Shown piece after piece: positions 1,064-24,925 of a stretch of DNA of 64,000 bases. Source of the stretch: Burkholderia cepacia. GTDB lineage: Bacteria; Pseudomonadota; Gammaproteobacteria; Burkholderiales; Burkholderiaceae. Below the pieces are notes generated by a model. That model saw nothing but the letters and a program-made list of their open reading frames with translations. It was not told the origin of the DNA and made no database searches. The stretch is taken from assembly GCF_029962485.1 (NCBI RefSeq), contig NZ_CP073637.1, forward strand, positions 2,914,001 through 2,978,000. Reading direction: 5' to 3'. Each line of letters opens with the position of its first letter. Within the stretch, counting starts at the first letter, position 1. Both the position numbers and the translations under genes were made by a program.

Positions 1064-1123
1064 TTCCCGTCCGCCGCAGCGCACCATCGAAATGCCGTTT
1101 CCCCGCCTTGACTTTCGCTCGCC

Positions 1124-1168
1124 CGAATACGATCATTCGCTCACACAAAGAGCAAATGATCGTATTCG
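1124..1168. promoter_or_regulatory. Probable SorC-type operator before dalD
   Basis: A 14-bp perfect inverted repeat, CGAATACGATCATT at 1124-1137 and its complement at 1155-1168. It continues inward after one mismatch to GCTC (1139-1142) and GAGC (1150-1153) around a 7-bp centre (1143-1149). It ends 33 bp before the dalD ATG, so a bound repressor would block the promoter or early transcription. The same half-site and the same 7-bp centre occur before the polyol operon at 15887-15921. The site is seen directly; assignment to the SorC protein at 4268-5224 is inference. Confidence 0.7.
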
Positions 1169-1201
1169 ACTGGAAAGACTGGCACGAACAGGAGACACCG
1201 G

Positions 1202-2596
1202 ATGAGCGCATCGCCCTCCGCCCGCGCGCCCGTGCTGCTGCACATCGGCGCGGGCTCGTTTCACCGCGCGCACCAGGCGTGGTATCTGCATCGCGTGAAC
1301 GCGGCCGTGCCGGCCGACGAACGCTGGTCGCTGACCGTCGGCAACATCCGCGACGACATGCGCGCGACGATGGATGCGCTCACTGCGCAGCACGGCGCCT
1401 ACACGCTCGAAACCGTCACGCCGCAAGGCGAGCGCGCGTACGAGACGATCCGCGCGATCACGCGCGTGCTGCCGTGGTCGATCGACCTCGCCGCGCTGAT
1501 CGACGCAGGCGCCGATCCGGCGTGCCGGATCGTGTCGTTCACCGTCACCGAAGGCGGCTACTACCTCGACGAACACAACCGGCTCGACATCGCGAACGCC
1601 GATCTCGCCGCCGACCTGCAGGGCGCGCGCACGACGCTGTACGGCGCGCTCGCGGCGCTGCTCGCCGAACGCATGACGCGCGGCGCGGGCCCGCTCACGC
1701 TGCAGAGCTGCGACAACCTGCGCAACAACGGCGCGCGCTTTCGCGCCGGGATGCGCGAATTCCTCGAACGGCGCGGTGAAACCGCCCTCCTCGCGTGGTT
1801 CGACGCGAACGTCGCGACGCCGAGCGCGATGGTCGACCGCATCACGCCGCGCCCGACCGCCGACGTGCGCGAGCGCGTACTCGCGGCCACCGGTATCGAC
1901 GACGCGTGCCCGGTGATGGGCGAATCGTTCATCCAGTGGGTGATCGAGGACCGCTTCGCGGCCGGCCGGCCGCGCTGGGAGCTGGCCGGCGCCGAACTCG
2001 TCGACGACGTGCATCCGTACGAGGAAGCGAAGATCCGCATTCTCAACGCGACGCACAGCTGCATCGCGTGGGCCGGCACGCTCGCGGGCCATACCTACAT
2101 CCACGAAGGCACGCACGACGCGGCGATCCGGCGCTTCGCGCACGATTACGTGACGCAGGACGTGATCCCGTGCCTGACGCCGAGCCCGCTCGATCTCGCG
2201 CGCTATCGCGACGTCGTGCTCGAACGCTTCGGCAACCCGTACGTGCTCGACACGAACCAGCGCGTGGCGGCCGACGGCTTCTCGAAGATCCCCGGCTTCA
2301 TCGCACCGACGCTCGTCGAATCGTTCGCGCGCGGCGCGGCGCCGGTCGCCACCGCCGTGCTGCCCGCGTTGTTCCTGCGCTTTCTCGAACGCTGGGCGCG
2401 TGGCCTGCTGCCGTATGCGTACCAGGACGGCGTGATGGACGACAGCGCCGCGCGGGCGATCGTCGACGCCGACGATCCGGTCGTCGCGCTGTGCGCGAGC
2501 CGCGCGCTGTGGGGCTCGCTCGCCGGCAACGCGGCGCTGTTCGAGGCGCTGCGCGGCGCGCTCGCGCGGGTCGACGCATGGCTGGCACAACGCTGA
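1202..2596 (+). CDS. dalD: D-arabinitol 4-dehydrogenase
   Basis: NAD-dependent cytosolic enzyme that oxidises D-arabinitol to D-xylulose. The 464 residues match the long-chain mannitol/arabinitol dehydrogenase family, and the sequence closely resembles the Klebsiella DalD protein as I remember it (blocks FHRAHQAWYLHR, FTVTEGGYYL, VMGE.FIQWVIED, NQRVAADGFSKIP). The catalytic pattern K-x4-N-x2-H is present as K277, N282 and H285. An AGGAGA ribosome site at 1190-1195 supports the ATG at 1202. xylB follows after 83 bp, giving the arabinitol to xylulose to xylulose-5-phosphate route. The strong inverted repeat at 1124-1168 suggests repression without polyol. Members of this family often also accept mannitol, so substrate range may be wider. 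Confidence 0.92.
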   Translation: MSASPSARAPVLLHIGAGSFHRAHQAWYLHRVNAAVPADERWSLTVGNIRDDMRATMDALTAQHGAYTLETVTPQGERAYETIRAITRVLPWSIDLAALIDAGADPACRIVSFTVTEGGYYLDEHNRLDIANADLAADLQGARTTLYGALAALLAERMTRGAGPLTLQSCDNLRNNGARFRAGMREFLERRGETALLAWFDANVATPSAMVDRITPRPTADVRERVLAATGIDDACPVMGESFIQWVIEDRFAAGRPRWELAGAELVDDVHPYEEAKIRILNATHSCIAWAGTLAGHTYIHEGTHDAAIRRFAHDYVTQDVIPCLTPSPLDLARYRDVVLERFGNPYVLDTNQRVAADGFSKIPGFIAPTLVESFARGAAPVATAVLPALFLRFLERWARGLLPYAYQDGVMDDSAARAIVDADDPVVALCASRALWGSLAGNAALFEALRGALARVDAWLAQR

Positions 2597-2679
2597 CGCG
2601 CATCCGGGCGAACCTGCCTTGGCATGTGCGCTGCCGCGCGGCTAAAGTAGCGACTCCCCACTGACGGAACGAATCGCTC

Positions 2680-4161
2680 ATGTATCTCGGCATCGACCTC
2701 GGCACCTCGGAAGTGAAGGTATTGCTGCTGGCCCCCGACGGCACGGTCGTCGGCACGGCCGGCACGCCGTTCACCGTGTCGCGGCCGCATCCGCGCTGGG
2801 CAGAACAGCATCCGGACGACTGGTGGCGAGGCACGCTCGCCGCGCTCGCAACGTTGCGCGAGCGGCATCCGCACGCGTTCGCGCAGGTGCGCGGCATCGG
2901 CCTGTCGGGACAGATGCACGGCGCCGTGCTGCTCGGTCGCGACGACCGCGTGCTGCGCCCCGCGATCCTGTGGAACGACATGCGCAGCGCCGACGAATGC
3001 GCGCTGCTCACCGAACGCGCGCCCGATCTCCATGCGCTGGCCGGCAATCTCGCGATGCCGGGCTTTACCGCGCCGAAACTGCTGTGGGTCGCGAAGCATG
3101 AACCCGACGTGTTCGCCGCCACCGCCTGCGTGCTGATGCCGAAGGACTACCTGCGGTTCCGGCTGACCGGTGCGAAAGTCTCGGACCCGTCGGACGCAGC
3201 CGGCACGCTGTGGCTCGACGTCGCGCGCCGCGACTGGTCCGACGCGCTGCTCGCCGCGTGCGACATGACCCGCGACCAGATGCCCCGCATCGTCGAGGGC
3301 AACGCGCCGTCCGGCACGCTGCGCGCTGACGTCGCGCGCGAGCTCGGGCTGTCGGAGGCCGTCGTGGTCGCGGGCGGCGGCGGCGACAACGCGACAAGTG
3401 CGCTCGGCATCGGCGCGATCCACGCGGGCGACGGCTTCGTGTCGCTCGGCACGTCGGGCGTGCTGAGCGTGGTCGGCGACCGCTTCATGCCAAACCCCGC
3501 ATCGGCCGTGCATGCGTTCTGCCACGCCATCCCCGATCGCTGGCAACTGATGAGCGTCGTGCTGTCGGCCGCGAGCTGCCTGCGCTGGGTCTGCAAGCTG
3601 ACGGGCACCGACGAGCCCGCACTGCTCGCCGAAGTCGAAACGCTCGACGCCGACGCGCTCGCGACGGCGCCGCTGTTCCTGCCCTACCTGTCCGGCGAGC
3701 GCACGCCGCACAACGATCCGTACGCACAAGGCGTGTTCTTCGGGATGACGCATGCGACCGAGCGCGCGCATCTCGGCTACGCGGTACTCGAAGGCGTGAC
3801 GCTCGGCCTCGCCGACGGCCTCGACGCGCTCCATGCGGCCGGCGTCGAAACCGACCAGCTGTCGCTGATCGGCGGCGGCGCGCGCAGCGCGTTCTGGGCG
3901 CAACTGATCGCCGACGCGCTGAACGTGCGCACGCGCCAGATCGGCGGCGGCGAGACGGGCGCGGCGCTCGGCGCGGCACGGCTCGGCTGGCTGGCCGTCG
4001 GCGGCGACCCGCACGCGGTGCTGACCAAGCCGCCGGTGCGCGCCGAATACGCGCCGGACGCCGCCCGCCATGCGCGGCTGCGCGAACGCCTCGACGCGTT
4101 CCGCTCGCTGTACCGTCACGTCCAGCCGCTGTACGAACCGTCGCGCACGCGGCTCGCGTAG
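2680..4161 (+). CDS. xylB: Xylulokinase (polyol locus copy)
   Basis: Phosphorylates D-xylulose to D-xylulose-5-phosphate for the pentose phosphate pathway. The 493 residues have the FGGY kinase layout: the N-terminal phosphate-binding motif GIDLGTSEVK, the substrate loop GLSGQMHGAV near residue 80, and the catalytic base Asp236 in GGGGDNATSALG. The C-terminal half contains GGGARSAFWAQ, the family adenosine motif. It lies 83 bp after dalD and receives that enzyme's product, so cotranscription is likely. The ribosome site before 2680 is weak. A second FGGY kinase at 21568-23064 is clearly diverged from this one and carries a repeat insertion. Confidence 0.93.
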   Translation: MYLGIDLGTSEVKVLLLAPDGTVVGTAGTPFTVSRPHPRWAEQHPDDWWRGTLAALATLRERHPHAFAQVRGIGLSGQMHGAVLLGRDDRVLRPAILWNDMRSADECALLTERAPDLHALAGNLAMPGFTAPKLLWVAKHEPDVFAATACVLMPKDYLRFRLTGAKVSDPSDAAGTLWLDVARRDWSDALLAACDMTRDQMPRIVEGNAPSGTLRADVARELGLSEAVVVAGGGGDNATSALGIGAIHAGDGFVSLGTSGVLSVVGDRFMPNPASAVHAFCHAIPDRWQLMSVVLSAASCLRWVCKLTGTDEPALLAEVETLDADALATAPLFLPYLSGERTPHNDPYAQGVFFGMTHATERAHLGYAVLEGVTLGLADGLDALHAAGVETDQLSLIGGGARSAFWAQLIADALNVRTRQIGGGETGAALGAARLGWLAVGGDPHAVLTKPPVRAEYAPDAARHARLRERLDAFRSLYRHVQPLYEPSRTRLA

Positions 4162-4267
4162 ACGTGACTGCGGGGCAGCGCGCACGACATGCGTTACAGT
4201 GGACGCCGTCGTGCGGCCTGCCGGCTGGCCCGCGGGGCGGCCCCCTGATCCGAACCGAATCGCTATC

Positions 4268-5224
4268 GTGTCCAAGTCCTCAGAAAAACTCGATCTCGCC
4301 ACGCGTGCCGCGTGGCTCTACTACGTCGCGGGCGACACGCAGAACGAAATCGCCGAGAAGCTGCAGGTCTCGCGCCCGGTCGCGCAGCGCCTCGTTGCGT
4401 TCGCGGTCGAGAAGAACCTGATCCGCGTGCGCGTCGATCACCAGCTCGCCGACTGCCTCGATCTCGGCGCGCAGCTGTCGAAACGCTATGGCCTCGCGAT
4501 GTGCGAAGTCGTGCCCGTCGATGCCGATGCACCCGATGCGATCGACCGCAAGCTCGCGGTCGCCGGCGCGCAGGTGATGGAGCGCTATCTGAACGAAACG
4601 CGCCCGATGGTGATCGCGGTCAGTAGCGGCCGGACGCTGAAGGCCGCGGTCGCGCAGATCGCGCAGATCGAGCGCCCGCAGCACCGGCTCGTGTCGATGG
4701 TCGGCGCGATCGCGGCCGACGGGTCGTCGAACCGCTACGACGTCGCGCAGTACATCTCCGAGAAAACCGGCAGCAAGCACTTCCTGCTACCCGCGCCGCT
4801 GTTCGCCGACAGCAACGCCGAGCGCGCGCAGTGGTGCAATCACCGGCTGTACCGGATCGTCGAGGCACTGTCGGGCCAGGCCGACGTCGCGTTCGTCGGG
4901 ATCGGCAACATCGGCCCGCACTGCCCGCTCTACGAAGACGGCTTCATCACCGAACGGGAGCGCGACGAGATGACCGCGCTCGGCGCGGTGGCCGAACTGC
5001 TCGGCGTGCCGATCGACGCGCAAGGCAAGCTGATCGACGTGTCGACCAGCGCACGCGTGACGAGCGTGGCGCTCGCGTCGCCGCCGAAGCTGCCGACGAT
5101 CGCGTTCGCCGGCGGCCCGAAGAAACACGACGCGGTGATCGCCGCGCTGCGCGGCGGCTGGCTGTCGGGGCTCGTCACCGACGAAACCTGCGCACGCGCC
5201 GCGCTCGCCGCGAAGGCGGCCTGA
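4268..5224 (+). CDS. SorC family sugar-binding transcriptional regulator
   Basis: Probable effector-responsive regulator of polyol use, 318 residues. Residues about 5-60 form a SorC/DeoR-type helix-turn-helix (WLYYVAGDTQNEIAEKLQVSR), followed by the sugar-phosphate-binding domain with FVGIGNIGPHCPLYEDGFI near the middle. I chose the GTG at 4268 because the HTH begins a few residues later and upstream in-frame sequence lies within the end of xylB and a non-conserved stretch; no clear ribosome site helps. It follows xylB by 106 bp in the same direction. The paired inverted repeats before dalD and before the polyol operon are the best candidates for its binding sites. The ligand, perhaps xylulose-5-phosphate or another sugar phosphate, is inferred. 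Confidence 0.85.
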   Translation: MSKSSEKLDLATRAAWLYYVAGDTQNEIAEKLQVSRPVAQRLVAFAVEKNLIRVRVDHQLADCLDLGAQLSKRYGLAMCEVVPVDADAPDAIDRKLAVAGAQVMERYLNETRPMVIAVSSGRTLKAAVAQIAQIERPQHRLVSMVGAIAADGSSNRYDVAQYISEKTGSKHFLLPAPLFADSNAERAQWCNHRLYRIVEALSGQADVAFVGIGNIGPHCPLYEDGFITERERDEMTALGAVAELLGVPIDAQGKLIDVSTSARVTSVALASPPKLPTIAFAGGPKKHDAVIAALRGGWLSGLVTDETCARAALAAKAA

Positions 5225-5246
5225 CACCGCCGACGGGCACGCCCGC

Positions 5247-6458
5247 TCAGGCCGCGCGCGGCGCCGGGAACGCATGCCGGCGCGCGCGCCACGCGCCGAG
5301 CCACGCGGCCGCCAGCAGCACGACCAGCACCCACGGAATCGCGCCGGCGCCCGTCGCATCGAGCAGCATCCCGCCCGCGATGCCGCCACCGGCGATCGCC
5401 AGATTCCACACCGTCACGAGCATCGACTGCGCGACGTCGGCCGACTCGCCCGCCGCGTTCGCGGCAGCCGTCTGGAACAGCGTCGGCGCGCCGCCAAACG
5501 CGAGCCCCCACAGCGCGACGCCCGCGTAGACGATCGCCATCCCGGAACCGGCGCCGAGCATCAGCGCCGCGAGCGCGAACAGCGCGATGCTGGCGAGCGT
5601 CAGCCGCCGTTGCGCGGCGCCGATCCATGCGCCCGTCAGCGCGATGCCGGCCAGCGACGCGATACCGAACACGAACAGCACCACATCGACCTGCGTGCCC
5701 ATCCGCACGCCTGCCAGGAACGGCGCGACATACGTGTACAGCATGTTGTGCGCGAGCACGTACGCGAACATCACGGTCAGCACCGGCCGCACGCCGGGCA
5801 GCGTCATCACGCCGAGCACCGGCTCGCGCGCGCCGGCGGACTGCCCCGCGTAATCGGGCACGCGCAGGCGAATCCAGCCGATCAGCGCGAGCGCCGCCAG
5901 CGTGATCAGCGCGAACGCGACGCGCCAGCCAAGCGCCGCACCGAGCGCGGTGCCGGCCGGAATGCCGATCGACATCGCGACCGGCGCGCCGAGCATCGCC
6001 ACCGCGATCGCCCGACCGCGCAGCGAAGCGTCGACCATCCGGCTCGCATAGCCGGCCAGCAACGCCCACAGCAGCCCGGCCGCCATGCCGGCGACGAAGC
6101 GCGCGACGAGCGTGAGCGCGTAGTACGGCGACACGGCCGTCAGCGCGTTCGACACGACGAAGCCGGCGAGCGCCGCGAGCAGCAGGCGCCGCCGGCGCAT
6201 CGCCCGCGTCGCGGCGACGAGCGGAATCGCCGCGACGATCGAGCCGAGCGCATAGACGGTCACGAGCTGGCCGATCAGCGCCTCGGGCACGCGCAGGTCG
6301 GCGCTCATCAACGGCAGCAGGCCGGCCGGCAACGCTTCGGTGAGGATGGTGATGAAGGCGGCCGTCGCGAGCGCCAGCAGGTTCGCGACCGGCAGGCGTT
6401 CGGCCGCCTGCGCCGGCTGGCCGGCAACGCGGCCGTCCATCGACGGGCAATCGCTCAT
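5247..6458 (-). CDS. MFS drug/sugar efflux transporter
   Basis: Inner-membrane major facilitator of 403 residues with about twelve hydrophobic segments. It starts near residue 25 with the region NLLALATAAFITILTEALPA and has the DHA1-family loop after helix 2 (AATRAMRRRRLLL). The profile resembles the AraJ/YdhP/purine-exporter branch. The start at 6458 has a GGGAG ribosome site; a longer frame to 6623 would run through the divergent promoter and lacks membrane-protein character. It faces the LysR gene at 6622 across a 163-bp gap containing a CGGACAC-N11-GTGTCCG dyad, the usual layout for a LysR-controlled exporter. The substrate is unknown. Confidence 0.85.
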   Translation of the reverse strand: MSDCPSMDGRVAGQPAQAAERLPVANLLALATAAFITILTEALPAGLLPLMSADLRVPEALIGQLVTVYALGSIVAAIPLVAATRAMRRRRLLLAALAGFVVSNALTAVSPYYALTLVARFVAGMAAGLLWALLAGYASRMVDASLRGRAIAVAMLGAPVAMSIGIPAGTALGAALGWRVAFALITLAALALIGWIRLRVPDYAGQSAGAREPVLGVMTLPGVRPVLTVMFAYVLAHNMLYTYVAPFLAGVRMGTQVDVVLFVFGIASLAGIALTGAWIGAAQRRLTLASIALFALAALMLGAGSGMAIVYAGVALWGLAFGGAPTLFQTAAANAAGESADVAQSMLVTVWNLAIAGGGIAGGMLLDATGAGAIPWVLVVLLAAAWLGAWRARRHAFPAPRAA

Positions 6459-6581
6459 GATGCGCTCCCGGCTTCGACGCGACGGGCGATGACAGGCAGG
6501 AATGACATGGCGTGACCTCGAACAGTGAAGGAACGCCCATCGTAGGGAGCCGGCGCGAGAAGAAAAACCGGGGTAGAGTTC

Positions 6582-6606
6582 CGGACACTCCGGACGCCGG
6601 TGTCCG
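6582..6606. promoter_or_regulatory. LysR-type dyad between MFS and LysR genes
   Basis: CGGACAC at 6582-6588 and GTGTCCG at 6600-6606 form a perfect 7-bp dyad with an 11-bp centre, the geometry typical of LysR recognition sites. It ends 15 bp before the LysR ATG and is well placed for autoregulation and for control of the divergent MFS gene. Binding is inferred. Confidence 0.55.
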
Positions 6607-6621
6607 CAATCGGGATCTCGC

Positions 6622-7506
6622 ATGGAAAATCTGGGCGGTTTCGTCGTGTTCGTTCAGGTCGCCGAAACGCGCAGCTTCGTCGCGGCCGGCCGCGCGCTCG
6701 GGCTGTCGGCTTCGGCGATCGGCAAGCGCATCGCGCGGCTCGAGGCGCGCCTGAACGTGCGGTTGTTTCACCGCAGCACGCGCAGCATCACGCTGACGGC
6801 CGAAGGCACGCGCTTTCTCGAACGATGCCGGCGCGTGATCGCCGAGATCGAAGCGGCCGAACGGGAATTGACGCACAGCACCGAAGCGCCGCGCGGCCGG
6901 CTGCGCGTGAGCCTGCCGACGATCGGCACGCTGCTGCTGCCGGTGCTCGCCGATTTCATGGCCGCGTATCCGGAGATCGAGCTCGACATCGATTTCAGCG
7001 ACCGGCTCGTCGACGTCGTCGACGAAGGGTTCGACGCGGTGCTGCGCACCGGCCAGCCTTCAGATTCACGGCTGTCGTCGCGGCTGCTCGGCCATTTCCG
7101 CCAGCACCTCGTCGCGTCGCCCGCGTATCTCGACCGGCACGGCACGCCGCGCACGCCGGCCGATCTCGCACAGCATCGCTGCCTGCACTATCGCTTCCCG
7201 ACCAGCGGCAAGCTCGAAACCTGGCCGCTGCGCGTGCCGCGCACCGGTACGCCACCGGAGGTGCCGGTCGCGATGGTCAGCAACAGCGCGGAAGCACGCC
7301 TGTGCTTCGCGCTGCGCGGGCTCGGCATCGCGTGCCTGCCCATTTTCTTCGTGCGCGACGCGCTCGAGGACGGCACGCTGCGCGCGGTGCTCGACGAACA
7401 CGTCGCGAGCTGCGCGCCGATCCACGTCCTGTGGCCGTCAGGCCGGCACCCGACGCCGAAGCTGCGCGCGTTCGTCGACTACATGGCCGAACACCTGCGC
7501 ATCTGA
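6622..7506 (+). CDS. LysR family transcriptional regulator
   Basis: A 294-residue LysR regulator. The HTH is at about residues 3-60 (ALGLSASAIGKRIARLEARL), followed by the effector-binding domain from about residue 90 (GRLRVSLPTIGTLLLPVLADF). It belongs to the subgroup with SASAIGK/SVSKRI-type recognition helices, often local regulators of exporters or oxidoreductases. It is divergent from the MFS gene at 5247-6458 and shares a 163-bp promoter gap with it, so that transporter is the expected target. It converges with the ABC ATPase gene ending at 7526, 19 bp away, with no clear terminator between them. The family is certain; the effector is not known. Confidence 0.93.
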   Translation: MENLGGFVVFVQVAETRSFVAAGRALGLSASAIGKRIARLEARLNVRLFHRSTRSITLTAEGTRFLERCRRVIAEIEAAERELTHSTEAPRGRLRVSLPTIGTLLLPVLADFMAAYPEIELDIDFSDRLVDVVDEGFDAVLRTGQPSDSRLSSRLLGHFRQHLVASPAYLDRHGTPRTPADLAQHRCLHYRFPTSGKLETWPLRVPRTGTPPEVPVAMVSNSAEARLCFALRGLGIACLPIFFVRDALEDGTLRAVLDEHVASCAPIHVLWPSGRHPTPKLRAFVDYMAEHLRI

Positions 7507-7525
7507 GCGGCGCAGGCGCCGGTCG

Positions 7526-8635
<1,110 letters not shown>

Positions 8636-8659
8636 GATCTGTCTCCGTTCGTTCGTGAT

Positions 8660-8679
8660 GCGCCGCCTTCGGGCGGCGC
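8660..8679. other. Intra-operon hairpin between HAD and ATPase genes
   Basis: GCGCCGCC at 8660-8667 pairs perfectly with 8672-8679 around a 4-base loop, inside the 54-bp gap between the HAD and ATPase genes. There is no T-tract, so it is not a terminator. It may be an RNA stability or processing element. Confidence 0.5.
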
Positions 8680-8689
8680 GCAATCGTTG

Positions 8690-9373
8690 CTAGTTCGGCA
8701 GCACCGCGCCCGTCGCCTGCCAGCGCGCGACGTAACCGGGCAGCTCGTGCATGTCGTCGAATACGTGACGCGCGCCGATCCCGCGCAGCGCGTCGATTTG
8801 AGCGGCCGACGCATGCCCGCCGCCGACGAAGCCGAGCACGGTCATGCCGGCCGCCGCCGCCGCGGTGATGCCGGTCACGCTGTCCTCGACGACGAGGCAG
8901 TGGGCAGGCGCCGCGCCGAGCGTGCGCGCGGCCGCGAGATACACGTCGGGCGCCGGCTTCGGCCGCGCAACGGCATCCGCGCAGAACAGCCGGTCGCCGA
9001 AGAAGCGCGCGAGACCGGTGCGCGCGAGCGCCGCCTCGACGTACGCACGGTAGCTGTTGCTCGCGCAGGCCGTCGTCAGTTGAATCGCGGCCAGCGCCGT
9101 ATCGATACCGTCGACCATCGGCGCATTGACGGCCGCTGCTTCGACCGCGCGGCGAATCGCCTCGACGTCGGCGGCCGACAGCGTGCGGCCGACGGCCTCG
9201 CCGGCACCGGCCAGCACGCGCTCGATGCGCAACCCGAGCAGCGGCATCACGGCCGGCCGCGCATCGACGCCCGGCCAGCGCGCATCGAGTTCGCGCACGA
9301 TCACGTCGGCGGCCACGGCCTCGCTGTCGATCAGCACGCCGTCGCAATCGCAGATCAGGACGTTCGCTGTCAT
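8690..9373 (-). CDS. HAD family sugar-phosphate phosphatase or phosphomutase-like protein
   Basis: Soluble hydrolase of 227 residues in HAD subfamily I (the beta-phosphoglucomutase/phosphatase group). Motif I is CDCDGVLIDSE at the N-terminus with nucleophile and acid/base Asp, motif II is the TTACASNS stretch near residue 105, motif III is the Lys in RPKPAPDVY, and motif IV is VVEDSVTGI. Its ATG overlaps the upstream permease stop codon by 4 bp, so the two are translationally coupled. It sits between permease and ATPase genes, suggesting a role in the same pathway, such as dephosphorylating a misphosphorylated polyol or sugar intermediate. That role is inference; the fold is clear. Confidence 0.85.
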   Translation of the reverse strand: MTANVLICDCDGVLIDSEAVAADVIVRELDARWPGVDARPAVMPLLGLRIERVLAGAGEAVGRTLSAADVEAIRRAVEAAAVNAPMVDGIDTALAAIQLTTACASNSYRAYVEAALARTGLARFFGDRLFCADAVARPKPAPDVYLAAARTLGAAPAHCLVVEDSVTGITAAAAAGMTVLGFVGGGHASAAQIDALRGIGARHVFDDMHELPGYVARWQATGAVLPN

Positions 9374-10221
9374 TTGACGGCCCCGAACGTGAGCCCGCGC
9401 ACGAGCTGCTTCTGCGACAGCCAGCCGACGATCAGGATCGGCGCGACGGCCAGCAGGGAGGCGGCGGACAGCTTCGCCCAGAACAACCCTTCGGGGCTCG
9501 AGTACGACGCGATGAACACGGTCAGCGGCGCGGCGTTCGAACTCGACAGGTTGATGCTCCAGAACGCCTCGTTCCACGACAGGATGACGAGCAGCAGCGC
9601 GGTGGATGCAAGCCCCGGCAGCGCCATCGGCATCAGCAGGTAGACGATCTCCTGCCACGTCGACGCGCCGTCGATGCGCCCGGCCTCGAGGATGTCCTTC
9701 GGAATTTCGTTGAAGTACGTGAAGGTCATCCATACCGCGATCGGCAGGTTGATCAGCGTGTAGACGATCACGAGCCCCGACACCGTGTCGAGCAGCCCCG
9801 CGTTCTTCCACAGCAGATAGATCGGCACGAGCACACCGACCGACGGCATCATCTTCGTCGACAGCATCCACAGCAGCACCTTCTGCGTGCGATGGTTCGG
9901 GAAGAACGCCATCGCGTACGCGGCCGGCACCGCGAACAGCAACGAGATCACCGTGACGCCGGCCGAGATCAGCACCGAATTCCACGCGAACGCGAAGTAG
10001 TTGCTGCGTGCGAACACCTCGCGGAAGCTGTCGAGCGTCGGCATGAAGAACAGCGTCGACGCATACGCTTGCTGCTCGGTCTTGAACGCGGTGATCGCCA
10101 TCCAGAAGATCGGGAAGAACAGCAGCAGCGCGATCAGCCACGCGAGCGTGCCGGGCAGCGCGCGCCGCACGAGGTCGAACACGGCCGGCACGCGCCGGCC
10201 TTCGAAGGTCAGGTCGCTCAT
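9370..10221 (-). CDS. Polyol ABC transporter permease (MalG/SmoG type)
   Basis: Inner-membrane permease of 283 residues with six predicted transmembrane segments, the first at about residues 24-44. The family EAA loop that contacts the ATPase is visible near residues 178-198 (EIPKDILEAGRIDGASTWQE). A GGG-type ribosome site is weak, but the ATG at 10221 overlaps the stop of the partner permease by 4 bp, which fixes the start. The stop in turn overlaps the HAD gene. With the MalF-type partner it forms the translocation channel for polyols delivered by the binding protein at 11280-12605. Confidence 0.92.
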   Translation of the reverse strand: MSDLTFEGRRVPAVFDLVRRALPGTLAWLIALLLFFPIFWMAITAFKTEQQAYASTLFFMPTLDSFREVFARSNYFAFAWNSVLISAGVTVISLLFAVPAAYAMAFFPNHRTQKVLLWMLSTKMMPSVGVLVPIYLLWKNAGLLDTVSGLVIVYTLINLPIAVWMTFTYFNEIPKDILEAGRIDGASTWQEIVYLLMPMALPGLASTALLLVILSWNEAFWSINLSSSNAAPLTVFIASYSSPEGLFWAKLSAASLLAVAPILIVGWLSQKQLVRGLTFGAVK

Positions 10222-11165
10222 TTCTCGTACTCTCCCTTCAGGTTGCGCGCGAGCATCCGCACGAGGAAGAACGACACGACGTTCGCGACCACCACGGCGA
10301 TGATGCCGCCCGCGGACGCGAGGCCGACGTCGAACTGCTGCAGCCCGAGCGCGTAGATCAGGTAGGACAGGTTAGTCGTCGCGTCGCCGGGGCCGCCGCC
10401 GGTCGTCGTGTAGATCTCCGCGAAGATCGACAGCAGGAAGATGGTCTCCATCATCACGACCACGGCGATCGCGCGCTTCAGGTGCGGCAGCGTGATGTAG
10501 AAGAACATCGCGATCGGGCCCGCGCCGTCGATGCGCGCGGCTTCCTTCTGCTCCTGGTCGAGCGACTGGATCGCGGTGAACAGGATCAGGAACGCGAACG
10601 GCAGCCACTGCCACGCGACGATGATGATCACCGCGGTGAGCGGGTAATCGGCGAACCAGTCGATCGGCGTCATGCCAAGCGCGCGCATCGCGTTCGCGAC
10701 CAGGCCGTATACCGGGTGCAGGATCATGTTCTTCCAGATCAGCGCGGACACCGTCGGCATCACGAAGAACGGCGCGATCGCGAGCAGGCGCGCGACGCCC
10801 TGCCCGTAGAACTTGCGGTCGAACAGCACGGCCATCAGCACGCCGCCGACCACCGTGATCGCGAGCACCGCGCCGATCAGCACGAGCGTGTGCCAGATCG
10901 CGGGCAGGAACGACGGATCGGTCGCGAGGAAGCGGTAGTTGTCGAATCCGGCAAAACCCTTCACGTCCGGGTTCAGCAGGTTGTAACGCGAGAACGAATA
11001 CCAGATCGTCATCGCGAGCGGAATCGACATCCACAGCAGCAGCACCGCGACGGACGGCGACACGAGCCAGCTCGCGCCGCCGCGCGCACGGCGCGGCGCG
11101 CCCGGCGGCGACGACGCGTCGCCGACCGGCGACGCATGGCTCAGGGGAAGACGTAAATGACGCAT
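10218..11165 (-). CDS. Polyol ABC transporter permease (MalF/SmoF type)
   Basis: Inner-membrane permease of 315 residues, the first of the pair. After a basic N-terminal tail it has transmembrane segments from about residue 33 (LVSPSVAVLLLWMSIPLAM) and an EAA loop near residue 216 (SLDQEQKEAARIDGAGP). The ATG at 11165 is preceded by a purine-rich GGAGGGA stretch. It follows the binding-protein gene after a 114-bp gap that contains a long hairpin, and it overlaps the second permease by 4 bp. It belongs with the polyol branch of the carbohydrate uptake transporter 1 family. Confidence 0.92.
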   Translation of the reverse strand: MRHLRLPLSHASPVGDASSPPGAPRRARGGASWLVSPSVAVLLLWMSIPLAMTIWYSFSRYNLLNPDVKGFAGFDNYRFLATDPSFLPAIWHTLVLIGAVLAITVVGGVLMAVLFDRKFYGQGVARLLAIAPFFVMPTVSALIWKNMILHPVYGLVANAMRALGMTPIDWFADYPLTAVIIIVAWQWLPFAFLILFTAIQSLDQEQKEAARIDGAGPIAMFFYITLPHLKRAIAVVVMMETIFLLSIFAEIYTTTGGGPGDATTNLSYLIYALGLQQFDVGLASAGGIIAVVVANVVSFFLVRMLARNLKGEYEK

Positions 11166-11227
11166 GATCGGAGTCCCTCCGGTTGATGCGCGGGCGAAAC
11201 CGGCCTGCCCGCCTTTCAGCTTCGCCG

Positions 11228-11261
11228 GCCCGCACCGTGCGCGACGGCGCGCGGTGCGGGC
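11228..11261. other. Stem-loop between binding-protein and permease genes
   Basis: A 10-bp perfect stem (11228-11237 with 11252-11261) extends inward through a G-U pair and four more pairs (39-42 with 47-50) to a 4-base loop. It lies just after the binding-protein stop codon and lacks a T-tract. Hairpins at this position in ABC operons, for example after malE, protect the upstream mRNA so that binding protein is made in excess over permease. That role is inferred here. Confidence 0.6.
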
Positions 11262-11279
11262 TGCACGGCGTCCTGCGCG

Positions 11280-12605
11280 TTACTTCTTGTAGCCGGCCTG
11301 CCGCACCGCGCGGTCGGCGGCGGCCTGCCCGGCGGCGAGCGCCTGGTCGACCGTCATCTGGCCCGCGACCGCACCGGCGATCGATTGGCCGACCACCGTG
11401 CCGAACGACTGGAATTCAGGAATCCCGACGTACTGCACGCCCGTGTACGGCACCTTCTTCAGCGACGGATCGTTCGGGTCGGCCGTCTCGATCGCCTTCA
11501 GCACGAAGTCCGAGAACGGCGCGGCGGCCTTGTACTCGGGGCGCTGATACGTCGACGTGCGGGTGCCCGGCGGCACCGACGCCCAGCCCTCGTCCTTGCC
11601 GGCCATCTCGATGTACTGCTTCGACGTCGCCCACGCGATGAACTTGCGCGCGGCGTCCTGCTGCTTCGACGTCTTCGGCACGGCCAGCGCCCACGCCCAC
11701 AGCCAGTGCGAACCCTTCGGCGTGGCGGCGACGGGCGCGGCCGCGAAGCCGATCTTGTCGGCCACCTGCGACTGCTGCTTGTTGTAGAGCATGCCGGCCG
11801 CGACCGTCGCGTCGATCCACATCGCGCACTTGCCCGATGCGGTGAGCGTCAAGTTCTCGTTGAAGCCGTTCGAGCTCGCTCCCGGCGGGCCGTCTTTCTT
11901 CAGCAGGTTCACGTAGAACGTGATCGCCTTCTTCCATTCAGGCGACGTGAGCTGCGCGTTCCAGTTCTCGTCGAACCAGCGCCCGCCGAACGTGTTCACG
12001 ACCGTCGACACGAACGCCATGTTCTCGCCCCAGCCGGCCTTGCCGCGCAGGCAGATCCCGTAGGTGCCCTTCGACTTGTCGGTGAGCTTGTCCGCGAATT
12101 CGGCGATCTGGTCGTAGGTCGGCTGGTCGGGCATCTTCAGCCCCTTCGCCGCGAACAGGTCCTTGCGGTAGAACGTCATCGAGCTTTCGACGTAGAACGG
12201 CAGCGCGTAGAGCTGGCCGTTGTACGACAGGCTGTCGCGCGCTGTCTTCACGATGTCGTTCAGGTCGTAGTCGGCTGGCAGGCCCGTCATCGGCGCGAGC
12301 CAGCCGCGCTTGCCCCACTGCGGCGTCTCGTAGGTGCCGATCGCCATCACGTCGAACTGGCCGCTGCCGGTCGTGATGTCGGTCGTCGCACGCTGGCGCA
12401 GCACGTTTTCCTCGAGGATCACCCAGTTCAGCTTGATGTCGGGGTTCGCCTTCTCGAACGCCGGCGACAGCTTCTTCAGCTCGATCATGTCGGGGTTGTT
12501 CAGCGTCGCGATCGTCAGCGTGCCGGCGGACACGGCGCAGGCCGCCGTCGCGAGCGCGGCTCCGGCGAAGCAGCGTGCGGCGGCGTCGAGCATCTTTCGT
12601 TGCAT
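11280..12605 (-). CDS. Polyol ABC transporter periplasmic substrate-binding protein
   Basis: Exported solute-binding protein of 441 residues (family 1, SmoE/MtlE type). The signal peptide covers about residues 1-27 and ends at AVSA. The mature protein begins GTLTIATLNNPDMIELKKLSPAFE and keeps family landmarks such as VMAIGTYETPQWGKRGWLAPM and the aromatic-rich YALPFYVESSMTFYRKDLF. ATG 12605 has an AGGAGA ribosome site; upstream in-frame sequence is basic and non-conserved. It is the fourth gene of the operon and is followed by a hairpin. Relatives in Rhodobacter and Pseudomonas bind sorbitol, mannitol and arabitol, so this importer probably feeds both the dehydrogenase at 15051-15827 and DalD. 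Confidence 0.92.
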   Translation of the reverse strand: MQRKMLDAAARCFAGAALATAACAVSAGTLTIATLNNPDMIELKKLSPAFEKANPDIKLNWVILEENVLRQRATTDITTGSGQFDVMAIGTYETPQWGKRGWLAPMTGLPADYDLNDIVKTARDSLSYNGQLYALPFYVESSMTFYRKDLFAAKGLKMPDQPTYDQIAEFADKLTDKSKGTYGICLRGKAGWGENMAFVSTVVNTFGGRWFDENWNAQLTSPEWKKAITFYVNLLKKDGPPGASSNGFNENLTLTASGKCAMWIDATVAAGMLYNKQQSQVADKIGFAAAPVAATPKGSHWLWAWALAVPKTSKQQDAARKFIAWATSKQYIEMAGKDEGWASVPPGTRTSTYQRPEYKAAAPFSDFVLKAIETADPNDPSLKKVPYTGVQYVGIPEFQSFGTVVGQSIAGAVAGQMTVDQALAAGQAAADRAVRQAGYKK

Positions 12606-12666
12606 GGCATGTCTCCTGTGTTTGTTCGAAGTGTCGTCGGTCTTGCGTCGTTTCCTTCGCGGCCTG

Positions 12667-14028
12667 TCACGCCGGCCGCTGCATTCCGCACGCGCGCGCA
12701 TAGTGCGCGATCACGTCGCGTATCCGGTGGCGCACCCACGCGCGCGGCTCCCTCGCGAGCCCACCCGCGCGGCACGCCGCGTAGACATCCGGCAGCCACT
12801 GCGCGACGAGCGTCTCCGGCACCGGCTGCCGCGCGAGGTTGTCGAACAGCTGCTCGACCGCGGCCGCAACGGACGGCTGCAGCCAGTAGTAGCGGATCCG
12901 GTCGCTGTAGCTGAACTGGCGCGCGAGCCGCTGCTCGGTCTCGTCGCCGCGGTAGTACGGCGCCCAGTGTTCGGGCTGCGCGCGCATCGCGGCATCGACC
13001 ACATCGCGCAGGCGCGAACGCTGCGCGACGTCACCGATCAGCGCATCCTCGATGAACGTCAGCGCGAACAGCGCCTCGCGCAGCGCGAACGTCAGCGCGG
13101 GGCCGACCTTCAGCACCGCGAAATGGTCGCGCACGAGCGCGGCGAGCGCGCCTTCGGTCTGGTAATCGGTCGAGTGCGCCTCGAACACGAGGTGCGGTGT
13201 CTGCAGGATACTCGCGCCGAGCGACGCCGCCTTCGCACTGTCGTAGTCGAGTACGTGACGATCGTCGAAGTCGACGCCCGGCTGCGCGACGATCGCCACG
13301 ACACGCGCCCAGGCGTCGTCGAGCCCGGCATCCGCAAACGCACGACGGTGTGCATCGAGCGTCGCCGCGATGCTGTCGCTGCGCGTGACCGCGATCTGCG
13401 CGATCGCCGCATCGTCCCCTTCGTTCGCGCCGCCGCTCACTTCGCCGCCCGGCGTCGGCACTTCGGTGCCGATCACGTAGACGGGCGCGATACCGGCGCG
13501 CCGGGCCGCGTCTTCCGCCGCGCGGCACAGCTCGGCCGCGCGTGCGGCGATCGTGCGGTCGTCGAGCCGCACCGGATCGTCCGCGCACGCCATGCTCGCA
13601 TCGAGGTGGATCTTCTCGAAGCCGGCCTCGACGTACGCGGCGACCATCGCGACGGCCTCGCGCATCGCGTCGGCCGCGCGGCGGTGCCGCCACGGGTTCG
13701 GGCCGAGATGGTCGCCGCCGAGCACGAGCGCCGACGGCGCGAGCCCGCAACGCGCCGCGATCGCATCGACGTCACGGCGGAAATCGGCGGGCGTCATGCC
13801 CGTATAGCCGCCGAGATGGTTCACCTGGTTGCAGGTCGCCTCGATCAGGAGCGGCGAGCCGTCCGCGCGCGCGGCTTCGCACGCGGCTTCCAGAACGAGC
13901 CGGTGCGCACTGCAGATCGAATAGATGCCGCGCTGCGCGTCGGCGCGGTTCGCGTCGAAGATCATCCGCAGCACCGCGTCCGCATGGGCGGTGCGCGGGC
14001 GTTCGGCGAAGGTCGTCAGGCCGGACAT
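12667..14028 (-). CDS. gatZ: GatZ/KbaZ family protein; probable tagatose-6-phosphate 4-epimerase
   Basis: Cytosolic TIM-barrel protein of 453 residues, full length for the GatZ/KbaZ family. Conserved blocks are IYSICSAHRLVLEAA, LIEATCNQVNHLGGYTGM, LVLGGDHLGPNPWRH, EKIHLDASMACADD and VYVIGTEVPTPGGE. GatZ was first described as the non-catalytic partner of the tagatose-bisphosphate aldolase GatY. As I recall, stand-alone members in Agrobacterium polyol pathways are D-tagatose-6-phosphate 4-epimerases making fructose-6-phosphate. No gatY/kbaY is in this window and the gene sits with a sugar kinase and a polyol dehydrogenase, so I favour the epimerase. The start overlaps the kinase stop by 13 bp, indicating coupling. 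The exact reaction is inferred. Confidence 0.85.
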   Translation of the reverse strand: MSGLTTFAERPRTAHADAVLRMIFDANRADAQRGIYSICSAHRLVLEAACEAARADGSPLLIEATCNQVNHLGGYTGMTPADFRRDVDAIAARCGLAPSALVLGGDHLGPNPWRHRRAADAMREAVAMVAAYVEAGFEKIHLDASMACADDPVRLDDRTIAARAAELCRAAEDAARRAGIAPVYVIGTEVPTPGGEVSGGANEGDDAAIAQIAVTRSDSIAATLDAHRRAFADAGLDDAWARVVAIVAQPGVDFDDRHVLDYDSAKAASLGASILQTPHLVFEAHSTDYQTEGALAALVRDHFAVLKVGPALTFALREALFALTFIEDALIGDVAQRSRLRDVVDAAMRAQPEHWAPYYRGDETEQRLARQFSYSDRIRYYWLQPSVAAAVEQLFDNLARQPVPETLVAQWLPDVYAACRAGGLAREPRAWVRHRIRDVIAHYARACGMQRPA

Positions 14029-14972
14029 GCGATACCTCGTTCGGTCAGGAAGCGGTCGATCTCGGCCGCGCTGCTGTTGCCTTCCATCGGGCCGCGCCGC
14101 GTGACCGCGATCGCACCGGCCGCATTCGCGCGGCGCAAGGCGGCATCGATCGGCACGCCCGCGACGAGGCTCGCAACGAGCGTGCCGCCGAAGCAGTCGC
14201 CGGCGCCGGTCGGGTCGACTTCGTCGACCGGAAAGGCGGATGCGTCGACGCGGTTCGCGCGGTCGAACGCGACGCTGCCTTGCGCGCCGCGCTTCAGCAC
14301 GACACGCTCCAGCAACGGATGCGTCGCGAGCAGGCCCGCGATCGCGCGCTCGGCCGGCTGCGGCCCGCAGAAGAACGGCAGGTCGGCCTCGCTCGGCATG
14401 AACAGGTGGCACGCGGCGAGCATCTCGTCGAGCGCCGCGCGCATCGGGCGAAAGCTCAGCATCTCGGGGCGCACGTTCGGATCGAACGACACCTTTGCGC
14501 CGGCGCGCGCGGCCTCGATCACGCCGCGCTGCACGGCCGCGATCGCCGATTCGCTCGTCAGCGACGAGCCCATCACGTGGAAATAGCGGCAGCCGTCGAA
14601 CATCGCGGGATCGACGTCCGATGCATCGACGCACGCGGCCGCGCTGGTGGACAGCGTGAAGACGAAGCTGCGCGAACCGTCGTCGCGATACGCGACGAAT
14701 GCGGTGCCGGTCGGACGTGAGACGCGGCGGATGCGCGCCACCTCGACACCGTCGCGTTCGAGCCGCGCGACGATCGCGTCGCCGAACGCGTCGCGGCCGA
14801 CGCAGCCCGCATACGCGACGCGTGCACCGAGCCGTGCGGCCTGGTCGGCGAAGATCGCCGGCGCGCCGCTCGGGAACGGCCCCGCGAACAGGCCTGGCGT
14901 CTCGAAACCCTGGCCGCGCTCGGCGGCGACGAATTCGGCGAGCAGTTCGCCGGCGACGACGATCTCGGCCAT
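14016..14972 (-). CDS. PfkB family sugar kinase
   Basis: ATP-dependent cytosolic sugar kinase of 318 residues, ribokinase/PfkB superfamily. The N-terminal substrate region is GELLAEFVA with SGAPAIFADQAARLG, and the second signature DPTGAGDCFGG near the C-terminus supplies the catalytic base Asp259 and anion hole. It lies between the polyol dehydrogenase (78 bp upstream) and gatZ (13-bp overlap), so its substrate should be the ketose made by the dehydrogenase, such as tagatose or fructose, phosphorylated at C6 or C1. Annotation pipelines often call such genes fructokinase; the sequence alone does not decide. Confidence 0.88.
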   Translation of the reverse strand: MAEIVVAGELLAEFVAAERGQGFETPGLFAGPFPSGAPAIFADQAARLGARVAYAGCVGRDAFGDAIVARLERDGVEVARIRRVSRPTGTAFVAYRDDGSRSFVFTLSTSAAACVDASDVDPAMFDGCRYFHVMGSSLTSESAIAAVQRGVIEAARAGAKVSFDPNVRPEMLSFRPMRAALDEMLAACHLFMPSEADLPFFCGPQPAERAIAGLLATHPLLERVVLKRGAQGSVAFDRANRVDASAFPVDEVDPTGAGDCFGGTLVASLVAGVPIDAALRRANAAGAIAVTRRGPMEGNSSAAEIDRFLTERGIACPA

Positions 14973-15050
14973 CAGGCGTGCCCTCCCCGTTCGACGGCGG
15001 CCGAGTCGTCGCGGACCGGCCGGCAGGTTGCGCGTGCGAGCAGCCCCACG

Positions 15051-15827
15051 TCAGCTCATCCAGTTGCCGCCGTCGACATTCAGCGTCTGGGCGGTGATGT
15101 AATCGGCGTCGGCCGACGAGAGGAACAGAGCGGCGCCCGTCAGGTCGCCCGGTACGCCCATGCGGCCGAGCGGCACGGCTTCGCCGACGAGCCGCTTCTT
15201 CTCGCCGAGCGGCCGGTTCTCGTAGCGCGCGAAGAGGGCATCGACCTGCTCCCACATCGGCGTGTCGACGACGCCCGGCGCAATCCCGTTCACGTTGATC
15301 CGGTGCGGCGCGAGCGCGAGCGCGGCCGACTGCGTATAGCTGATCACCGCGGCCTTGGTCGCGCAGTAGTGCGAAACGAGCGCCTCGCCACGACGGCCGG
15401 CCTGCGACGACATGTTGACGATCTTGCCGCCGCGCCCCTGCTCAACCATCCGCTGTGCGACGGCCTGCATCAGGAAGAACAGCCCCTTCACGTTGACCGC
15501 GAACAGCCGGTCGAACACGTCCCACGATTCGTCGAGGATCGGGCGCATGTCGAACAGCGCCGCGTTGTTGAACAGGATGTCGACGCCGCCGAAGCGCTCG
15601 ACCGCCGTGGCGACGATCCGCTCGATGTCGTCGCGGCGCGTGACGTCCGCGGTGACGGCCACCGCGCGGCCGGGGTTCGCCTCGATCAGCCGCGCGAGCG
15701 AGCCGCTGGCGGGCTTCAGGTCGACGAGCACGCAACGTGCGCCCTCGTCCAGATAGCGTTGCGCGACCGCCTCGCCGATGCCGCTTGCGGCGCCCGTCAG
15801 GATCGCGACCTTGTCTTCCAGTCTCAC
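15051..15827 (-). CDS. Short-chain polyol 2-dehydrogenase (sorbitol/L-iditol/galactitol type)
   Basis: NAD-dependent SDR of 258 residues, first gene of the polyol operon. The Rossmann glycine motif is TGAASGIGEAV at about residues 11-21, the NNAA motif follows near residue 88, and the catalytic Ser-Tyr-Lys is in NMSSQAGRRGEALVSHYCATKAAV. The C-terminus ends in NVDGGNWMS. It closely resembles the Rhodobacter sphaeroides sorbitol dehydrogenase SmoS/galactitol dehydrogenase as I recall them, which oxidise polyols at C2 to fructose or tagatose. The start is a GTG at 15827 with a GGAGA ribosome site. An operator-like dyad lies 60-94 bp upstream. Confidence 0.9.
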   Translation of the reverse strand: MRLEDKVAILTGAASGIGEAVAQRYLDEGARCVLVDLKPASGSLARLIEANPGRAVAVTADVTRRDDIERIVATAVERFGGVDILFNNAALFDMRPILDESWDVFDRLFAVNVKGLFFLMQAVAQRMVEQGRGGKIVNMSSQAGRRGEALVSHYCATKAAVISYTQSAALALAPHRINVNGIAPGVVDTPMWEQVDALFARYENRPLGEKKRLVGEAVPLGRMGVPGDLTGAALFLSSADADYITAQTLNVDGGNWMS

Positions 15828-15886
15828 TGGCTGTCTCCGGTTCGTTCTGCTGTACGACGGTCACGAGGTGAGCGAACGCTCGCCGA

Positions 15887-15921
15887 CCGATCAATTGCTC
15901 TGTTAGTGATCGAATGATCGG
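15887..15921. promoter_or_regulatory. Probable SorC-type operator before polyol operon
   Basis: An imperfect inverted repeat: CCGATCAATTGCTC at 15887-15900 and GATCGAATGATCGG at 15908-15921, matching as a dyad at 11 of 14 positions with a 7-bp centre. The left arm, read on the opposite strand, is GAGCAATTGATCGG; the dalD half-site is GAGCAAATGATCGT. It is 60 bp upstream of the operon's GTG start. The rest of the 329-bp gap to zur holds the two divergent promoters and no gene. Confidence 0.65.
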
Positions 15922-16107
15922 ATACGCGATTCGCGCTGTCAAGGCGACACGACGGCTTTCTATGACGCGCTGCGGCACAACGGCGCATGACGACGGCCCG
16001 TCGCGCACGCCCGGCAAGGCGCGCGGCGCGCGGTGCGGCGCAGTGGGACCGACGGTGAAGGGGACGGAGCGAGGCGGGAAAGGGGAATTCGCGCTGCACG
16101 GCGCGAC

Positions 16108-16618: not shown

Positions 16619-16664
16619 CGCTGAATCGCGCGGCCACGCGCCGCCCCTTCCAATGAGGAGTTTC

Positions 16665-17576
16665 ATGTCCATTGCCCTGAAGCGCGCGCCGCGGCGTGCC
16701 CTGTCGCCTGTTCGCTGGCTCGCCGCCGCCGTTGCCGCGCTGTCGCTCGCGGCGCCCGCGTTCGCGCAGGCCGCGACCGTCAACGTCGTCGCCGCCGAGA
16801 ATTTCTACGGCGACGTCGCGACGCAGATCGGCGGCAGCCACGTTGCGGTCACGAGCATCCTCAGCAATCCCGACCAGGATCCGCACCTGTTCGAAGCGAG
16901 CCCGAAGACGGCCCGTGCGCTCCAGCACGCGCAGGTCGTGATCTACAACGGCGCCGACTACGATCCTTGGATGGGCAAGCTGCTCGGCGCGTCGAAGCAG
17001 GCGAAGCGCGCGACGATCGTCGTCGCCGATCTGGTCGGCAAGAAGGCCGGCGACAACCCGCACCTGTGGTACGACCCGGCGACGATGCCGGCCGCCGCGC
17101 GCGCGATCGCGGCAGAACTCGGCCGCGCCGACCCGGCGAACAAGGCCGAGTACGATGCGAACCTGCAGAAGTTCGTCGCATCGCTGAAGCCCGTCGACGA
17201 CAAGGTCGCCGCGCTGCGCGCGAAGTACAAGGGCGTGCCGGTGACGGCCACCGAGCCCGTATTCGGCTACATGTCGGACGCGATCGGCCTCGACATGCGC
17301 AACCAGCGCTTCCAGCTCGCGACGATGAACGACACCGAAGCCAGCGCGCAGGACGTCGCCGCATTCGAGAACGACCTGCGCAAGAAGCAGGTGCGCGTGC
17401 TGATCTACAACAGCCAGGCCGAAGAACCGATGACCAAGCGCATGCTGAAGATCGCGCGCGACGGCGGCGTGCCGACCGTTAGCGTCACCGAGACGCAGCC
17501 GGCCGGCAAGACCTTCCAGCAATGGATGGCCGGCCAGCTCGACGCGCTCGGCAATGCGCTTTCAGCCGGCAAGTAA
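16665..17576 (+). CDS. znuA: Zinc ABC transporter periplasmic binding protein
   Basis: Periplasmic metal-binding lipocalin-like cluster A-I protein of 303 residues. The signal peptide (about 1-34) ends near AFAQA. Metal-ligand His residues are in DPHLFEAS near residue 71 and NPHLWYDP near residue 131, with an acidic ligand late in the protein. It lacks the long His-rich loop seen in Escherichia coli ZnuA; instead the ATPase ZnuC here has a His-rich tail. ATG 16665 is favoured over 16653 because GAGGAG lies just before it. The zur gene is upstream and znuC follows after 17 bp. The family also contains Mn importers; the Zur linkage argues for zinc. Confidence 0.88.
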   Translation: MSIALKRAPRRALSPVRWLAAAVAALSLAAPAFAQAATVNVVAAENFYGDVATQIGGSHVAVTSILSNPDQDPHLFEASPKTARALQHAQVVIYNGADYDPWMGKLLGASKQAKRATIVVADLVGKKAGDNPHLWYDPATMPAAARAIAAELGRADPANKAEYDANLQKFVASLKPVDDKVAALRAKYKGVPVTATEPVFGYMSDAIGLDMRNQRFQLATMNDTEASAQDVAAFENDLRKKQVRVLIYNSQAEEPMTKRMLKIARDGGVPTVSVTETQPAGKTFQQWMAGQLDALGNALSAGK

Positions 17577-17593
17577 TTGACACCCGTAACGAC

Positions 17594-24890: not shown

Positions 24891-24925
24891 TCGCCCCGCG
24901 CCGGACGACGGCGCGCAGCGGTAAA

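Follow-up and report, generated by a model that had tools for sequence, protein, structure and literature searches.

SorC-type control of two opposing polyol promoters predicted from paired composite operators in Burkholderia cepacia

Introduction

How might a bacterium coordinate two polyol promoters that face in opposite directions at one locus? The question is raised by a 64,000-nucleotide stretch of Burkholderia cepacia DNA (C1:2914001-2978000 of the 7,704,383-base genome G000; hereafter the window), in which dalD, encoding D-arabinitol 4-dehydrogenase, lies on the plus strand and an operon for a short-chain dehydrogenase/reductase (SDR) and an ATP-binding cassette (ABC) transporter on the minus strand. 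An initial annotation had proposed that one SorC-type regulator controls both promoters through a shared operator. Here we report that the two-promoter switch is real, specific and conserved, and that its regulator is very likely the SorC-type protein encoded third behind the dalD promoter. Computation shows the sites and their conservation, together with the geometry of the promoters and the link to SorC; the mode of regulation is proposed from these findings.

Results

Composite operators at two promoters

The repeating element of both sites is a 12-bp quasi-palindrome, approximately GAKCANNTGMTC, at a 19-bp pitch. The number of units differs, with two before dalD and three before the SDR/ABC-transporter operon. 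At site 1 (operator O1, plus strand), unit 1, GATCATTCGCTC, lies at 1131..1142 and unit 2, GAGCAAATGATC, at 1150..1161. The full dyad of this site measures 45 bp (1124..1168), and its 19-bp arms (1124-1142 and 1150-1168) pair at 18 of 19 positions. At site 2 (operator O2, read on the minus strand), units 1, 2 and 3 are GATCATTCGATC at 15908..15919, GAGCAATTGATC at 15889..15900 and GAGCGTTCGCTC at 15870..15881. The arms of site 2 (15887-15900 and 15908-15921) pair at 11 of 14 positions, which is unremarkable alone; what is remarkable is their match to site 1, the right arm of which (plus strand) agrees with the reverse complement of the left arm of site 2 at 12 of 14 positions. In 20 dinucleotide shuffles of the window the best 19-bp-arm dyad per shuffle scored 15-17, compared with 18 at site 1. 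The real window holds one further 18/19 dyad, which has no gap and starts at 24923.

The near-identical half-sites that the initial annotation had described before dalD and before the polyol operon are thus present. Its inverted repeats exist at both places as well, but the true element is the 12-bp unit at a 19-bp pitch, and the third unit of site 2 falls outside the span that had been given. The two sites had also been credited with the same 7-bp centre; the centres are alike in length but not in sequence (ACACAAA at site 1; TGTTAGT at site 2, or ACTAACA on the other strand).

A sigma-70 scan found a sole promoter-like site in each stretch. Before dalD this is TTGACT-17-GATCAT at 1108-1136 (+), with the -35 hexamer at 1108..1113 and a score of 9/12 (shuffles mean 0.0); before the SDR gene it is TTGACA-17-GATCAT at 15942-15914 (-), with the -35 hexamer at 15937..15942 and a score of 10/12 (shuffles mean 0.1). 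The -35 hexamers match the consensus at 5/6 and 6/6 positions, respectively, and TTGACT is also found in the dalD-side contexts of relatives. The predicted -10 coincides with the first half of unit 1 at both promoters: GATCAT forms the first six bases of unit 1 in O1 and occupies 15919-15914 in unit 1 of O2. To avoid circularity, operators in the window and in 40 loci fetched from relatives (L071-L110) were also picked by dyad score alone (at least 21/24). In one orientation, all 69 unique operators obtained in this way, from 41 loci, are preceded at a distance of exactly 17 bp by a 5/6 or 6/6 match to TTGACA.

When up to three mismatches are allowed, a pattern that spans both sites matches these two places only in the whole genome, and a reversed control pattern has zero matches genome-wide. 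A looser pattern (2 mismatches, fewer fixed bases) gives one extra single-strand match, on another contig.

Conservation in Burkholderia and related genera

The conservation check that the initial annotation had outlined finds the sites beside dalD as well as beside the SDR/transporter operon in Burkholderia, Paraburkholderia, Caballeronia and Trinickia. Pattern matches occur in 64 of 65 genomes of the genus, one of which (G016) has a match on a single strand only, with 3 mismatches; the SorC protein is found at 81% identity or more in 62 of the 65. The 40 fetched loci comprise a close group of 35 (L071-L085 and L091-L110) and five from genera g15 and g24. All 35 close-group loci carry the dalD-side site and 33 carry the SDR-side site; the other two end before it, L072 starting inside the gene for the solute-binding protein (SBP) of the transporter and L109 being 5945 bases long. 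A collection of named genomes contains at least 120 stretches with the promoter and a two-unit core, of which 60 stand before dalD, 54 before the SDR gene and 2 before the SBP gene, while 4 end too early to judge. Among the 80 matches listed by name, all are from Burkholderia, Paraburkholderia, Caballeronia or Trinickia.

For column-by-column comparison we used 95 unique TTGACT-type contexts (dalD) and 106 unique TTGACA-type contexts (SDR and a few others), which were selected by the -35 and the unit score, so that -35 conservation within this set is meaningless. The mean majority identity was 0.96 and 0.94 for the two dalD units and 0.96, 0.92 and 0.87 for the three SDR units; it was 0.77 and 0.62 in the spacer between -35 and -10, 0.66 and 0.69 in the first 7-bp gap and 0.41-0.46 in the second gap. 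As many as 46 different 7-bp centres occur among the dalD-type contexts and 51 among the SDR-type contexts. The third unit is present in 96 of the 106 TTGACA-type contexts versus 1 of the 95 TTGACT-type contexts, and this pairing of two and three units at two promoters offers a natural experiment on operator number and induction order.

None of the five g15/g24 loci has a site scoring 20 or more, and three have one scoring 19. The arrangement TTGACA-17 or 18-unit-7-unit is found in all five (no shuffle control).

Association of the sites with the SorC-type gene

The candidate regulator is a SorC-type (sugar-binding) transcriptional regulator of 318 amino acids with a GTG start, encoded at 4268..5224 on the plus strand (PF04198, 177.1 bits; cut-off 27). 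Besides this match, membership of the SorC family is indicated by near full-length alignment, including the helix-turn-helix, to LsrR, DeoR and SorC, which are its closest solved structures in the PDB; the matches to individual helix-turn-helix domains (MarR_2, HTH_23) are significant, yet under their cut-offs. It is the one protein of its own genome with PF04198 over the cut-off, a second match lying under it. One of the closest SorC proteins carries the name B. cepacia, and others are from further Burkholderia and related genera. One relative, P0098, is annotated as "Transcriptional regulator of mannitol utilization, DeoR family", so annotators had guessed at this role before.

SorC was matched at 1e-60 or better in 145 of 299 family genomes: 129 close ones (at least 72% identity, bar two partial matches at 65%), 3 in g15, 7 in g24 and 6 distant ones in g21. 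When searched with a relaxed pattern, 128 of the 129 close-SorC genomes gave matches on each strand, as did 5 of the 154 genomes lacking SorC; no genome among the 16 whose SorC is more distant did so (counts tallied by eye from two tables). In four of these five (G236, G254, G317 and G321) the matches on the two strands lie at different places, and only the fifth, G310, has a true site; G057 carries the SDR-side site on a small contig, its assembly being 82% complete. Among eight close-group loci the SorC helix-turn-helix hardly varies; it is changed in the five g15/g24 loci, where the operator has drifted too. These data support the proposal of one SorC-type regulator for two opposite promoters, as the sites follow the SorC gene and not the LysR-type genes of the window.

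Two genomes, G176 and G233, have an extra operator-like site with TTGACA 17 bp upstream, placed before another SDR gene (L247:3607-3637 and L248:3773-3803). An FGGY kinase gene is nearby, after that SDR gene in L248 and on the divergent side in L247, and each of the two genomes encodes a second PF04198 protein over the cut-off. A SorC protein at 86% identity (P0007) is filed under Ralstonia pseudosolanacearum, even though a close SorC is absent from many of the sampled genera, which points to a mislabelled record or to transfer.

Related layouts in distant loci

Relatives on plasmids (586 records listed) were represented by the best-ranked record and two more, which are 40.5-43.9% identical and come from Chelatococcus and two Paracoccus. 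All three of these alphaproteobacterial loci contain an ABC transporter and a mannitol-dehydrogenase-family gene, and one of the three has an SDR annotated as L-iditol 2-dehydrogenase. In 398 genomes of the phylum, SorC was matched at 1e-45 in 59. The 55 of these that lie outside the family gave 40 fetched loci, which with the three plasmid loci form a distant set of 43, 32 of them with an SBP gene at least 48% identical.

A layout of TTGAC, 15-18 bp and two units at a 19-bp pitch, no more than 350 bp upstream of the SBP gene, is present in 25 of these 32 loci; it was found in 2 of 3200 shuffled stretches, and there are three matches elsewhere in the 43 loci. A stricter first definition gave 19 of 32 loci, 1 of 1600 shuffles and two matches elsewhere, and the loose definition (15-bp spacer, unit score 5) was set after the misses of the strict scan had been seen. 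Leaving out the three plasmid loci, which had suggested the test, gives 22 of 29 under the loose definition and 16 of 29 under the strict one. Of five fetched dalD-sorC loci of family f18, three (L291, L314 and L323), in which the SBP gene of this type is unmatched, have pairs of 12-bp units at a 19-bp pitch before dalD (no shuffle control).

A tentative reading, to which we give somewhat less than even weight, is that an old operator grammar is common to the SorC regulators that respond to polyols in several classes of Proteobacteria, in which 12-bp units recur every 19 bp, the first lies on the -10 of a TTGACA promoter, and the number of units (two or three) sets the tightness of catabolism and of uptake each. 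The spread over several classes rests on the kinship column of the phylum listing and on the named plasmids. The operator gives this group of regulators a concrete binding site that can be searched for; in the literature we met, operators have been worked out only for the Bacillus proteins. Polyol regulons should be predictable with it in Burkholderia and relatives and, less certainly, in more distant genera.

Discussion

Proposed mechanism

The arrangement is best explained by a polyol-responsive, autoregulated SorC repressor (4268-5224) that, with high probability, binds both composite operators and so covers both core promoters. Each 12-bp unit presumably takes one SorC dimer, and a tetramer would bridge two units. 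The presence of two units fits what has been described, in the excerpt available from PMC11229326, for DeoR and CggR of Bacillus subtilis, SorC-family proteins that act as tetramers (dimers of dimers) on two half-operators; the halves of the CggR operator are tandem quasi-palindromes (same excerpt). The placement is different, however, with the DeoR operator at -60 to -21 and the CggR operator at +32 to +77, whereas unit 1 here holds the predicted -10, and the sequences differ as well (excerpt of PMC11229326).

With the predicted -10 lying inside unit 1, bound repressor would obstruct RNA polymerase at the two core promoters. Accumulation of a polyol, or of something formed from it by oxidation and phosphorylation, would release the repressor, and uptake, both dehydrogenases and both kinases would be switched on together, provided that the genes behind each promoter are co-transcribed, as we infer. 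No promoter-like site was found by the scan within 4050-5400, around the SorC gene; being third after the dalD promoter, this gene is probably autoregulated and would limit its own synthesis. The third unit probably tightens repression at the transporter promoter.

A genetic precedent exists in SmoC of Sinorhizobium meliloti, a DeoR-type, EryD-like negative regulator of the smo operon (excerpt of PMC10433430). In the smo locus, as here, a DeoR/EryD-like regulator stands beside genes for a polyol ABC transporter and for two dehydrogenases, one of sorbitol and one of mannitol (same excerpt), and this linkage of a polyol ABC transporter with SDR and mannitol-dehydrogenase-family genes is found at the present locus. 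Unlike the arrangement described here, in which the regulator follows dalD-xylB and the operator occurs at two operons, smoC is reported to be independently transcribed (excerpt of PMC10433430). The comparison is by description and not by sequence, and the SmoC operator is not described in that excerpt. The kind of system is thus already known, and what is new is the composition of the operator and its spread. SorC-type control, which had seemed different to the initial annotation, is not unusual: it has this precedent, and the three alphaproteobacterial plasmid relatives sit beside much the same gene set.

Weighing the evidence

Several observations weigh against the repressor model. The -10 sequence GATCAT matches only four of six consensus positions, so the start sites are predictions from sequence. 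In the 128 genomes noted above, matches on both strands were counted and were not confirmed as one place. Since SorC and the sites adjoin, loss of the locus as a whole accounts for part of their co-occurrence; dalD likewise was not found in the three genus genomes without SorC. G310, which is without SorC, keeps an intact SDR-side palindromic site (L113) in a decayed locus, where the SDR gene is in two pieces and frames and SorC (1e-60) and dalD (1e-40) have no match. Conversely, G225 has SorC and no forward match; its dalD matches in two pieces. The layout is missing in 7 of the 32 distant transporter loci, or 13 of 32 under the strict definition; five of the seven misses are from one family, f20, of the same class. 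Finally, EryD of S. meliloti is described as both a positive and a negative regulator (excerpt of PMC10433430).

This last point raises the possibility that SorC is the binder but mainly activates transcription, or does both like EryD, and a -10 at 4/6 could mean a weak promoter that depends on activation. We consider this unlikely: the -10 and the predicted start region lie under the units, while the stretch upstream of the -35 does not, the two -35 hexamers match the consensus at 5/6 and 6/6, and loss of SmoC leads to constitutive expression (excerpt of PMC10433430). Taken with the negative control by SmoC, the placement of units over the -10 and start region is consistent with repression.

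A different regulator is very improbable. Both LysR-type genes of the window, LysR1 (67-978) and LysR2 (6622-7506), lie close to the sites, LysR1 immediately preceding the dalD operator, and either product is a conceivable binder. However, neither was matched (tblastn, E 1e-20) in loci L071-L085, which include 1.9-3.1 kb upstream of dalD and which keep the dalD-side site in 15 of 15 cases and the SDR-side site in 14 of 15 (the remaining stretch ends early). In the 15 genomes of other genera from which these loci come, SorC and the dalD-side site are present in all 15; LysR1 was matched at 1e-60 in four, elsewhere in the genome, and LysR2 in seven, at 56% identity or less, a level no better than that of a LysR2 paralog in the genome of the window (55%). 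Five of the 15 (G312, G228, G152, G306 and G140) have neither at 1e-60 in a genome-wide search, which in large genomes scored only the best first-look candidates. A LysR-type binder is rejected, since the sites persist where both genes are absent from the locus and, in these five of 15 genomes, from the searched genome. The pair formed by LysR2 and a major facilitator superfamily (MFS) transporter gene, which the initial annotation had called unrelated, is not part of the conserved unit: neither gene was matched in L071-L085 or in L094-L100, where the sites are retained.

That a regulator of another family, encoded elsewhere, reads the sites while SorC controls something else is no less improbable: the regulator set of the genome was considered only in part, but SorC adjoins the sites in the intact loci inspected, its helix-turn-helix drifts in parallel with the operator, the layout recurs beside SorC in distant genomes, and the sites fit the two-half operator known for SorC proteins. 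A chance origin of the sites is rejected by the scan of their own genome, the shuffles and the conservation, and a terminator reading by a scan of both stretches, which finds no terminator-like site and a promoter-like site on each dyad.

Comparison with other polyol systems

In pseudomonads, the AraC-type MtlR is an activator (excerpt of PMC4514859). The MtlR system likewise combines a polyol ABC transporter with the breakdown of mannitol, arabitol and glucitol, but its AraC/XylS-type activator works on direct repeats, unlike the SorC control proposed here. Among the 20 proteins of the first 20 kb of the window, which include two LysR-type and one SorC-type regulator, none is of the AraC type; mtlR was not searched for elsewhere in the genome. 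Our results suggest that the AraC-type arrangement of pseudomonads is not the general rule.

DalR is the D-arabinitol operon repressor of Klebsiella. Like DalR, going by description and not by comparison with the Klebsiella sequence, the SorC-type protein would regulate a dalD operon, and a protein, P0113, carries the name "D-arabinitol operon repressor". Among the open-licence papers listed, none dealt, in its title or the start of its abstract, with a SorC operator for polyol genes in Burkholderia; in the excerpt of PMC12568896, regulator terms occur at three places, none of which names a regulator of this locus.

Gene content of the locus

The genes had been called correctly in the initial annotation, including dalD, xylB, the SorC-type gene, the MFS/LysR pair and the minus-strand operon. 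On the plus strand, dalD (1202..2596; NCBIfam NF043014, 746.6 bits, cut-off 600) is followed by xylB for xylulokinase (2680..4161; TIGR01312, 560.7 bits, cut-off 380.25) and by the SorC-type gene. Next come the MFS transporter gene (5247..6623, minus strand; PF07690) and the LysR2 gene (6622..7506, plus strand), both outside the conserved unit, before the minus-strand operon.

Read 5' to 3', this operon begins with the SDR polyol dehydrogenase of the L-iditol 2-dehydrogenase type (15051..15827; NF005472, 479.4 bits, cut-off 338), a tagatose-kinase-like PfkB-family kinase (14016..14972; NF049991, 328.8 bits, under the cut-off of 420) and a GatZ/KbaZ-like protein (12667..13968; TIGR02810, 637 bits, cut-off 568.8). 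The transporter genes follow, namely the SBP (PF01547; 11280..12701 as the longest open reading frame, the true start probably being lower) and two permeases (PF00528; 10218..11165, with an uncertain start codon, and 9370..10221). A HAD-family phosphatase (approximately 8690..9373; PF00702/PF13419 in the open reading frame 8690-10141) and an ATPase of the MalK/UgpC type (7526..8683, start codon uncertain) complete the operon.

The PfkB/GatZ pair (12667-14972) varies among relatives, being unmatched in L099, L101, L103, L105 and L071-L085, in which the other operon genes are kept. No GatY-type aldolase was found among the 20 window proteins scanned, and given this we assume that GatZ may here be a stand-alone epimerase. 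A gene set of the zinc-uptake type (ZnuA, ZnuC and an ABC-3 permease; 16653-19259) adjoins the SDR promoter, and the same neighbour is found in many of the fetched loci.

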